Shown piece by piece: positions 10,738 to 13,645 of a stretch of 64,000 bases of DNA. The stretch spans positions 1 to 64,000 of the forward strand of contig NZ_KE136480.1 of the NCBI RefSeq assembly GCF_000407165.1, read 5' to 3'. This DNA comes from Enterococcus haemoperoxidus ATCC BAA-382 (GTDB lineage Bacteria; Bacillota; Bacilli; Lactobacillales; Enterococcaceae). The notes below the pieces were generated by a model. It was not told the origin of the DNA. It saw nothing but the letters and a program-made list of their open reading frames with translations, and made no database searches. The translations under genes were made by a program, and so were the position numbers. Each line of letters opens with the position of its first letter. The stretch's first letter is position 1.

Positions 10738-10861
10738 AAAAAAAGAGAATGCATATTCCATCTTCTAAACGTCCTAAAACGCCGACAAAATACCATTCTC
10801 GTGGGTTTGGCACCCAATAGGTCGTAAGGGGCTCGAACCCATGACCCGCTGATTAAGAGTC
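10738..10861 (-). repeat. att-like direct repeat, left copy (partial tRNA-Lys duplicate)
   Basis: The copy differs from 13442-13565 at only a few bases (for example GACAAAAT against GACAGAAT). It contains the 3' half of tRNA-Lys from the anticodon arm on (GACTCTTAATCAGCGGGTC on the minus strand) and the hairpin terminator ending CATTCTCTTTTTTT. The identity stops exactly at AAGAGTC; the rest of the tRNA is missing, so this is not a functional tRNA. Confidence 0.85.
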
Positions 10862-10960: not shown

Positions 10961-11320
10961 TTAGTCATCGTTTTTGAAGTTTTTTAGTTCATTTGATAAC
11001 ACTCTTAAATACTCTTCCTCATCTTCTTCGTAAGTAATAATGTCAAAACTGATTTCAGCATCAATTTCACTTAAGAAATGAACCATTGGTGAATCTACAA
11101 CCATTGCAGGAAAATCTCCATCATAACAATCTATTGATAATACTACAGCGTACTTAATTTGTTCATCTTTAGCCTTTTTTTCAGAATACTAGTTTTAGGT
11201 TTAAATTTACTTAGTATCTCCTGATATGCTAAAGTAAAATCATACATTTCACAGAATGTTTTACTATAGCACCGACTATACCTTGGGCGATATTCTTCTG
11301 GCAGATTAGTTTTTTTTTAT
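10961..11320 (-). pseudogene. Frameshifted hypothetical gene in the tRNA-Lys island
   Basis: Two minus-strand frames join across an A7 run near 11178-11186. The upstream part reads NLPEEYRPRYSRCYSKTF and ends near KFKPKTSI. The downstream part reads KDEQIKYAVVLSIDCYDG and ends EYLRVLSNELKNFKNDD before a TAA. Neither part has a good start. I do not recognise the family. The shift in a homopolymer suggests decay typical of an old element, though a sequencing error is possible. Confidence 0.5.
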
Positions 11321-11397: not shown

Positions 11398-11814
11398 CTA
11401 TTGAAGAGTAAGTTCTATTGGAACAGAAAGTCCTCCGTTCCCTTCAACATTTGAAGCAAACTGACATATGATTTTATTTTCTCCCTTAATATCAATGTAA
11501 CAGCTACTTTTATTACTGGTGAAGACAAAACTGTCCTCTTTTGACCGTACATCATATTTATACAATAGTGTATCGTTACTCTCTCCATTTTCAATAATTT
11601 CCAAAGTATTCATATCACTACTTTTGAAGACAATGGTTGTATCCTGATTACTATTTTTCCACTCTTTATCCAGTAAAAAACGGAAAATATACTCTCTACT
11701 TGATAATTTTTCTTCCACAGGATTTGATTGTTTAGAATACAAATAAACACCCACCACAATGAATAAAACAAATAAAGAGATAATTATTGGAAATTTCTTA
11801 GTGAGTGTTCCCAT
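11398..11814 (-). CDS. Small membrane-anchored protein paired with the C47-like protease
   Basis: This 138-residue protein has a short basic N-terminus and one membrane helix at about residues 9-27 (PIIISLFVLFIVVGVYLY). An extracellular domain of about 105 residues follows. It is predicted to be strand-rich (repeated short alternating hydrophobic runs, ends in LSVPIELTLQ) and has a Cys pair about 11 residues apart. Its start lies 31 bases inside the end of the upstream protease gene, so translation is coupled. In staphylococci, C47 proteases are followed by staphostatin inhibitors of similar domain size, but those are cytosolic. An inhibitor or chaperone role here is inference from position and size only. 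Confidence 0.65.
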   Translation of the reverse strand: MGTLTKKFPIIISLFVLFIVVGVYLYSKQSNPVEEKLSSREYIFRFLLDKEWKNSNQDTTIVFKSSDMNTLEIIENGESNDTLLYKYDVRSKEDSFVFTSNKSSCYIDIKGENKIICQFASNVEGNGGLSVPIELTLQ

Positions 11815-12962
11815 GTAAATTTCCCTCCTGGAAACGGTAATGTTGGTGATTTAACGCCGCCATCAATACAGTTTGTATGAGGATACCAAGGATTCCAAAT
11901 ATAATACACATTTAACCCTTTATCAGGATTTACCCATCCATGAAGAACCAATGCATGGTAAGCATATTTTGCATTCGTATCATATTCTACTTTGGCAAAT
12001 ACAAATACAGGATTTCCTTTGTTCAACTCGTTTCTATTCTCGGCTAAAGTTAAAGGACGATTAACATAATAGGGATTCATTCCTAATTTTGATTTTGAAT
12101 AATCCATAGCTTGCTGCATATTTATTCCACCGTTCATATAGAAACTTTGCCCTGTCGCTTTTGGGAAAAAATGTCTCATGACTGTTTCTGCTTTCAAATA
12201 AAATGAAGATCGCTTGGTATTAGCTATTGCACTTAGCGCATAGCCCATACACCACTCATTTTTCCCACCATTCACTTGTAATTGATTCTCATAAATTTTT
12301 AAATCTATCATAGAATAATTTGAGCCACTAGAATAGCCTCTCACCATTTTTTTAGGTTTAATATATTCATTTTCTTCACTCATATCAACTGTTTCGGTAT
12401 GTTCATTAGAGATAGCATCCACAACTTCTTCAACTGTGGTTTCATTTTGCAAATCACTTTGTATCGGTGCTTGATATAACAATACGTTTTCTTCATTTCC
12501 ATTTGTATAATAAATATCATATCCTTTATTAAACAATGTTATCGGCGTTTGAGAGCCTTTTTCTTGCACGGCTAATTCGTTTAATTCTTTAACAAGAGAA
12601 ACTCCTATCGTGTCTATATATTGTTCCTCATCTTTTTTTACCATGTAAGTATATACAATCTTTCCATCATAGTATATTGGATATACTGCTGTTCTCTCCT
12701 CAATTTTCTCATAAGTATTCAACATACTAATTCCCGAACCTAAAGTATAATCTTCTAGATCTGCTTGACCTTTTCCTTCCGGAAGTAACATTGAAACTAT
12801 CTTATTAGATACATTATTTTTTGCATACAACTCCATTTCAGAACTTATTTCACCACTTTCAACAGCTAAAACATTATCAGCTATTTCTTGTGCTTCAGCA
12901 GCAGAAAAACCAAATAAAGTAACCCAGCAAATCCCTAACAATGTAACCATCCATTTTTTCAT
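11784..12962 (-). CDS. Secreted cysteine protease, staphopain-like (C47/papain fold)
   Basis: The 392-residue preproprotein starts with a signal peptide (residues 1-24, cleavage likely after AEA). It has a propeptide of about 185 residues with a long low-complexity acidic end. The catalytic domain spans about 210-392. Cys238 is in NEWCMGYALSAI, His336 is in YHALVLHGW and Asn357 is in YIWNPWY. This Cys-His-Asn order and the NxWCxGY and IWNPW motifs match staphopain (C47) proteases. It is likely secreted as a zymogen and activated outside. The gene overlaps a small membrane protein and lies in the tRNA-Lys island. GAAAGAAGG precedes the ATG. Substrate unknown. Confidence 0.75.
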   Translation of the reverse strand: MKKWMVTLLGICWVTLFGFSAAEAQEIADNVLAVESGEISSEMELYAKNNVSNKIVSMLLPEGKGQADLEDYTLGSGISMLNTYEKIEERTAVYPIYYDGKIVYTYMVKKDEEQYIDTIGVSLVKELNELAVQEKGSQTPITLFNKGYDIYYTNGNEENVLLYQAPIQSDLQNETTVEEVVDAISNEHTETVDMSEENEYIKPKKMVRGYSSGSNYSMIDLKIYENQLQVNGGKNEWCMGYALSAIANTKRSSFYLKAETVMRHFFPKATGQSFYMNGGINMQQAMDYSKSKLGMNPYYVNRPLTLAENRNELNKGNPVFVFAKVEYDTNAKYAYHALVLHGWVNPDKGLNVYYIWNPWYPHTNCIDGGVKSPTLPFPGGKFTWEHSLRNFQ

Positions 12963-13179
12963 TTTAACGCCTTCTTTCTTTTTTATACTTAATATTCATA
13001 ACAAGTGTTAAAATTATGAATAGTATAGTTTCCATTAGTGAAAATGTTTCTTTGAAGGTGATTAGTTCCGATATTTTTCCCTACTAAACCATTAATCTAA
13101 AATAATAATTTACCAAATTTTTCTTTTTAAAAATTAAACATGTCAATATAATCATTATTATAAACAACGTGTTTTATCT

Positions 13180-13373
13180 AGTCAACATTTCATACGTATA
13201 CGATTACATGATTTTTGACACTCTCATGTTGCCTTACTTATACATAACAGAGGAGAACCCACAGCAATCAAGAACAGGCTAGGTCATGCCTCAATTACAA
13301 CAACAATTGATATATATGGACATTTATACCCAAACAAAAATCAATGAGCGATAAACTAGATGATTTACTTTAA
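13180..13373 (+). pseudogene. Tyrosine integrase, C-terminal remnant
   Basis: Read on the plus strand the frame gives IRIRLHDF-stop-HSHVALL, then IHNRGEPTAIKNRLGHAS and ITTTIDIYGHLYPNKNQ. This is the end of a phage/ICE-type tyrosine recombinase. The HxxR box is present at 13207, but the Arg codon is TGA (CGA to TGA by one base). LGH and the nucleophile Tyr in DIYGHLY follow. After a TGA at 13345 the true end MSDKLDDLL continues one frame over and stops at 13373. The N-terminal part is gone. It lies about 70 bp from the att copy next to tRNA-Lys. Confidence 0.85.
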
Positions 13374-13441: not shown

Positions 13442-13594
<153 letters not shown>

Positions 13595-13645
13595 AAATAA
13601 TTAGTACTTAAATATTGTAGCACTTGAAGAGCCTTAATTCAAGAG

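Follow-up and report, generated by a model that had tools for sequence, protein, structure and literature searches.

In the staphylococcal systems staphopain B/staphostatin B (sspB-sspC) and staphopain A/staphostatin A (scpA-scpB), a C47 cysteine protease zymogen with a propeptide is encoded beside a small barrel protein. These systems are sometimes plasmid-borne (pAVX), and the parts of PMC3462683 available to us describe staphostatins as acting in the cytoplasm and guarding against premature activation. Here we analyzed the first 64,000 nucleotides of contig NZ_KE136480.1 of Enterococcus haemoperoxidus ATCC BAA-382 (hereafter the window, which is part of contig C2; genome size 3.58 Mb), in which a tRNA-Lys island holds a staphopain-type protease gene overlapping the gene of a small partner with an N-terminal anchor segment. 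We consider it probable that this island encodes a Sec-exported staphopain-type zymogen together with its cognate anchored inhibitor, a staphostatin homologue whose barrel would lie on the outer face of the membrane and protect the cell surface.

Exported staphostatin-like inhibitors find their nearest precedent, among those we have seen, in the Bacteroides C10 proteases Bfp and Btp with Bfi and Bti. There too, as far as the accessible portions of PMC2873492 and PMC3462683 go, a predicted exported protein or lipoprotein resembling staphostatins, with a conserved glycine, adjoins a cysteine protease, partly on mobile elements. Compared by description only, those systems differ in protease family (C10), in their Gram-negative host and in the predicted periplasmic or outer-membrane location of the inhibitors. 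Bacillus subtilis YxeF is likewise a lipoprotein, and its calycin barrel is close in structure to staphostatin B, although, again by description only, the excerpt of PMC3367933 at hand mentions no protease partner. Staphostatin B matches are reported in 1-3% of gut Bacillota in the part of PMC12111023 seen. Among the literature matches listed, with subscription papers mostly outside the search, no description of a membrane-anchored staphostatin in enterococci appeared in the portions available, and searches for 'C47 family peptidase', or for 'peptidase C47' with Enterococcus, returned no paper. The enterococcal pair comprises the following features, with coordinates in the window.

11784..12962, minus strand: secreted C47 (staphopain-type) cysteine protease, a pre-pro-enzyme of 392 residues with catalytic Gln227, Cys238, His336 and Asn357
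12339..12875, minus strand: propeptide, about residues 30-208, placed by the cover of prostaphopain B (1x9y) in sequence and fold; boundaries approximate
11787..12338, minus strand: papain-like catalytic domain, about residues 209-392, from staphopain matches 8oig, 1cv8 and 1y4h_A over residues 209/213-391
11398..11814, minus strand: predicted membrane-anchored staphostatin-like partner, 138 residues (family profile against PDB, profile-profile comparison, predicted model m74e238a0048b)
11784..11814, minus strand: overlap of the protease and partner genes, 31 bases (reading-frame coordinates)
11737..11793, minus strand: single N-terminal membrane helix of the partner, residues 8-26, with two lysines just before it and no lipobox cysteine (predicted model and hydrophobicity)
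11401..11703, minus strand: outer calycin/lipocalin-like beta-barrel domain of the partner, residues 38-138 (predicted model and fold search)
11416..11433, minus strand: partner loop G128-L-S-V-P-I, which aligns to the reactive loop of staphostatin B, P1 Gly98-T-S-R-P-I (HMMER family-profile alignment and other alignments)

The protease matched Pfam Peptidase_C47 with 61.2 bits (curated cut-off 22.6) and solved staphopain structures with E down to 5e-16. Prostaphopain B (1x9y) aligned through its propeptide, over residues 67-369 by sequence and 30-392 by fold, and the propeptide and papain-like domain arrangement of prostaphopain is present in the window protease. Gln227, Cys238, His336 and Asn357 were invariant, in that order, across all 15 aligned C47 proteins. 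Proteolytic activity of the protein is putative. From Gln to Cys there are 11 residues in the window protease versus 6 in staphopains, and the 5 additional residues between Gln227 and Cys238 (window 12249-12284) are also found in the protease of a relative, G006. Shine-Dalgarno-like stretches 7-9 nt 5′ of both start codons provide the two genes with good ribosome-binding sites.

Searched as a single sequence, the window partner had no match in PDB and only weak, unrelated-looking matches in Pfam and NCBIfam, with no staphostatin model among them; its staphostatin homology is seen at profile level only. The partner-family profile placed staphostatin B as top match in PDB (E 6e-4), and profile-profile comparison of the family with staphostatins gave Prob 95. 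The predicted model comprises eight strands besides a single hydrophobic helix at the N-terminus (residues 8-26) and a second, short one (39-47), and a fold search with it returned a calycin-like barrel, with staphostatin B first by VIA but tied, and at rank 35 by Foldseek E-value. Staphostatins share with the partner a G-x-W motif and the reactive-loop P1 glycine, which is kept in 10 of 12 partners and is G128 in the window protein.

What the six staphostatins compared lack is a hydrophobic N-terminal segment: their Kyte-Doolittle maximum is at most 0.59, whereas all 12 partners, some of whose starts were placed by hand at a later ATG, carry such a segment with maxima of 2.06-3.69 (17 residues). 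The enterococcal barrel comes with an anchor, and its gene order varies. A lipobox, judged by pattern, is present in 6 of the 12 partners; one of the 6 staphostatins fits the lipobox letters by chance. Because two lysines precede the helix and the window partner has no lipobox, an N-in, barrel-out anchor is expected. The partner is not counted as a plain staphostatin, since a cytosolic location without signal or anchor does not apply to it.

A preliminary description, made from the letters of the DNA, had read here a secreted C47 protease with the Cys238/His336/Asn357 order, a 31-base overlap with a gene of 138 residues, and a partner with one membrane helix and a strand-rich domain facing outward. 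The profile match, the reading frames, the predicted model and the anchor segments bear out each of these, the last two as predictions. Its proposal of a different kind of inhibitor did not hold: the profile evidence places the partner in the staphostatin superfamily, with the loop glycine kept, so that location rather than inhibitor type appears to set it apart. The earlier interpretation is partly supported overall, and neither outcome that would have refuted it was seen: the C47 profile does match, and protease homologues do occur together with the small partner. An activator or propeptide-like role for the partner was also considered and found no support, the propeptide being part of the protease itself.

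Across 105 Enterococcaceae genomes, 13 encode C47 proteases at 15 places, ten of the short type seen in the window and five of a long type (frames of 437-515 residues). A partner of 123-147 residues adjoins the protease in nine of the ten short loci, within about 40 nt and in three gene orders. The tenth (G018:C16) is broken: its C47 piece stands without a partner, and on the same contig, about 3.9 kb away, a partner comes before a separate fragment of a C47 N-terminus. No partner was detected at the five long loci (searched at E<=0.01 over about 1.5 kb of flank to either side, shorter where the contig ended). Among the 12 aligned partners, seven lie downstream on the same strand, two upstream on the same strand and three are convergent, with gaps of at most 51 nt. 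Models built without each sequence cluster, which include the anchor segments, recovered 12 of 12 partners (E 4e-8 to 3e-15; 1126 open reading frames), and a partner-family gene was estimated to fall next to a C47 gene by chance at about 0.001 per locus, assuming two family members per 3.5-Mb genome. We regard both the homology of the partners and their linkage to C47 as firm.

Among 395 evenly drawn Lactobacillales genomes, 11 matched C47, all Enterococcaceae except one, whose match was weak, below cut-off and over a MurF-looking frame. A Bacilli survey (398 genomes) found C47 in the window's own genome and in five genomes of one other genus, which we take to be Staphylococcus from their staphopain-like genes; five of their six C47 genes have a small staphostatin-like frame directly downstream, and the sixth has none on that strand. 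Outside the ten-locus count, E. quebecensis encodes a partner beside a C47 without the catalytic-Cys region, and a protease search of genome contigs matched only there.

We build our reading on the C47 identity, the adjacency in three gene orders, the profile homology to staphostatins, the N-terminal anchor segment and the conserved glycine. By analogy, the pair appears to work as staphopain and staphostatin do. The protease would be exported as a proenzyme, and any molecule that became active on or close to the membrane or wall would be captured by the anchored barrel. The partner loop Gly128-Leu-Ser may sit in the active-site cleft as a poor substrate, like Gly98-Thr-Ser of staphostatin B in the mechanism set out in the portion of PMC7863939 seen. 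Self-guarding outside the cell is suggested because the staphostatin-like partner is predicted to be tied to the outer side of the membrane and not intracellular; the producer's exported and surface proteins would be shielded against the protease that it makes itself and, possibly, against that made by neighbours.

Several results weaken this reading. The partner profile matches 41 of the 105 genomes (E<=0.01), 28 of which have no C47, and many members of the wider family are lipoproteins of 145-276 residues, several of which share the G-[TVL]-[AS]-x-P loop. The staphostatin profile ranks four distant lipoproteins and one orphan above all paired partners, and the distant lipoproteins also match staphostatins in profile-profile comparison, at a lower score (33.2 versus 48.0). 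A 34-row tree of partners, staphostatins and distant lipoproteins did not settle the deep order: it neither showed nor rejected a clade uniting partners and orphans with staphostatins (p 0.12), and the same held for a clade uniting staphostatins with the distant lipoproteins (p 0.07). The mirror-tree correlation of 0.76 (10 pairs) became 0.37 (p 0.12) without two close relatives, and co-divergence was dropped as support since it was not significant once these were removed. The glycine loop was likewise rejected as proof of inhibition, as relatives without C47 have the same loop. Because of the wider family, the open tree and the non-significant co-divergence, we infer strongly, and do not take as proven, that the partner inhibits its cognate C47 protease; the loop motif alone proves little. 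Five enterococcal lipoproteins of this wider set (L073, L074, L076, L078 and L079; 232-252 residues) seem, by reading, to hold two domain copies, each with a staphostatin-like end motif, and matched no Pfam or NCBIfam family over cut-off.

So common a family raises the question of whether the partner is a mere neighbour of C47 and, like many other lipocalin-like lipoproteins of enterococci, has some other task, such as ligand binding. We consider this highly improbable in view of the adjacency in nine of ten short loci and three gene orders, against none of five long ones, and of the low chance expectation. Outside location and tight linkage would also suit a foldase or anchor, that is, a surface chaperone or tether that aids folding, maturation or surface retention of the protease in place of inhibiting it, and the staphostatin structure 1qwx is titled 'Staphylococcal Inhibitor/Chaperone'. 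Such a role is quite improbable given the staphostatin homology and loop glycine of the partner, the protease's retention of its own propeptide, the usual folding aid, and the persistence of partners where the protease is broken or absent.

The setting of the pair was examined through the following surrounding features.

13521..13595, minus strand: tRNA-Lys (anticodon ctt), the integration site (tRNA scan; near-empty sites in relatives)
13442..13565, no strand assigned: proximal copy of a 124-nt direct repeat, overlapping the tRNA-Lys gene, att-like (repeat and tRNA searches)
10738..10861, no strand assigned: distal copy of the 124-nt direct repeat, holding part of a tRNA-Lys, att-like (repeat search)
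13219..13347, plus strand: remnant of a tyrosine integrase C-terminus between protease and tRNA (Phage_integrase E 0.003, below the Pfam cut-off)
13157..13185, minus strand: promoter-like TTGACT-17-TATAAT 5′ of the protease (weak evidence)
10961..11316, minus strand: short overlapping open frames 3′ of the pair, possibly the remains of a gene (two frames searched, no family match)

The two repeat copies are 98% identical and bracket the protease-partner pair. Promoter-like sites in the region were near chance level (18 observed versus 15.5 expected), and a terminator scan of the region found none. In 15 of 22 genomes of the genus, the window genome (G000) included, the distance between the island flanks could be measured. 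It is about 2.8 kb in G000; the shortest distances are those of G019 (about 120 bp), G006 and G013 (142 bp each), G021 (155 bp), G003 (232 bp) and G020 (330 bp), and the other eight genomes, G009, G004, G014, G010, G018, G007, G001 and G008, have 1.6-8.4 kb. Because this spacing ranges from about 120 bp to 8.4 kb across relatives, the pair is an insertion and the tRNA-Lys site looks like an integration hot spot; G006 carries the same pair about 109 kb away from the site. The mobile-element scar proposed in the preliminary description is supported by the repeats, the tRNA-Lys(ctt), the integrase remnant and the near-empty sites. The search it proposed for the pair in other enterococci showed a wider spread than it had supposed, over Enterococcaceae genomes and Enterococcus plasmids.

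Plasmid searches for the partner used the E. faecium partner as query; the window's own partner matched no plasmid. The E. faecium partner was found at >=90% identity in 118 Enterococcus plasmid records, in 116 over >=80% of its length; all 60 of these that were listed are E. faecium, and 48 name a human source. C47 at >=95%, whole or in part, occurs in 118 plasmid records, counted separately. On E. faecium plasmids the pair overlaps by 28 bases. In pAA622-5 (5,849 bp) it is the only evident cargo as annotated, accompanied by two replication-type and two small hypothetical genes, and on some 5.2-kb E. faecium plasmids the partner stands beside a C47 reduced to residues 269-384 (6 rows among the 60 of 177 listed, one of which was read). 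Against phage records, the E. faecium protease matched two Staphylococcus phages and no enterococcal phage.

Partners also occur alone. Three orphans (G000:C2:126934, G010 and G021) nest among paired partners on starred branches (97 and 100 bootstrap). The first two group with partners of G018 and G021; the third, which is the second partner of G021, groups with the second partner of G018. The orphan of the window genome (G000:C2:126934-127317; L087:5932-6324) is an anchored staphostatin-like gene of another subtype, separated from the pair by about 115 kb. With the G018 C47 as query (E<=1), G010 gave no match, G000 gave only the window C47 (28% identical) and one weak match on the other contig (E 0.02), and G021 gave only its paired C47, more than 1 Mb from the orphan. 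Pairwise Nei-Gojobori ratios of nonsynonymous to synonymous rates (dN/dS), rough since dS is near 1 and thus near saturation, were 0.11 and 0.10 for two protease pairs against 0.28 and 0.50 for the matching pairs of partners, which change faster in both cases, and 0.17-0.31 in the orphan comparisons. With values below 0.35, the orphan partners hint at immunity.

These observations would suit an interbacterial toxin-immunity or plasmid-maintenance system, in which the protease attacks neighbours without the cognate anchored inhibitor and the immunity protein is kept even without the protease: conserved orphans nest among paired partners, their dN/dS is low, change is faster in partners than in proteases in the two pairs compared, the partner persists after loss of an intact protease in E. 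quebecensis and on the 5.2-kb plasmids, and the pair is the sole evident cargo of a 5.8-kb plasmid. However, we saw no evidence of any C47 protease harming bacteria, and staphopain A is described as cleaving host proteins in the part of PMC10318531 available. The orphans may target other proteases or be remnants, the dN/dS values are pairwise and not per lineage with dS near saturation, and retention of the partner fits equally an inhibitor that is harmless to keep. We therefore hold such a system to be possible but unlikely. A bolder version, a shade more doubtful still, would make enterococcal C47s mobile antibacterial or plasmid-maintenance proteases, anchored staphostatin homologues their immunity proteins, and cytosolic staphostatins a branch of exported lipoproteins that lost the anchor.

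Several further loci extend the picture of C47 neighbourhoods. The long C47 proteins of enterococci and those of Lactococcus plasmids share the C47 domain, the latter being plasmid-borne, but no staphostatin-like partner was found in the stretches examined, and their neighbours differ. The five long enterococcal loci (L008-L011 and L015, in G003, G012, G020, G004 and G011) have upstream a protein of 190-234 residues (the L008 copy is cut) that by reading resembles a papain-like domain without the Cys motif; the L009 copy matched Peptidase_C39_2 below cut-off (E 0.0039) and the L011 copy had no match. Two of them encode a multi-helix protein of 114-131 residues further upstream. These neighbours look like another set of partners for C47 proteases. 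The E. faecium C47 matches 27 Lactococcus plasmid records; plasmids L099, L100 and L101 encode four C47 proteins of 491-1020 residues (the L100 one perhaps cut by the record start), three of which have a hydrophobic protein of 88-125 residues directly next downstream.

At L041:3850-6550 (G048:C13), a C47 without propeptide in frame accompanies an anchored partner and a split frame, with a thioredoxin-like frame and a small hydrophobic peptide beside them. The split frame is reminiscent of a V8-like serine protease, as in sspABC; the piece searched had no Pfam match. L090 (G052) encodes a partner domain without anchor among neighbours similar to those of L041, with no C47 match. At L042 (G092:C2), C47 and partner follow conjugation-module-like frames on a 37-kb contig with a ParA-like frame, as judged by reading.

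If the anchored partner does act as an inhibitor, the enterococcal pair would provide a Gram-positive branch in which the same protease goes with an inhibitor on the outside, so that a guard inside and a guard outside, covering self and perhaps neighbours, can now be compared. It also offers a likely function for a so-called 'hypothetical protein', of which 118 Enterococcus plasmid records hold close copies. The exported lipoprotein family is a possible source of the staphostatins, a point that the present tree could not settle. Should the immunity reading be true, loss of the plasmid or island would mean loss of the surface shield and exposure to the siblings' protease, and non-carriers would keep orphan shields.
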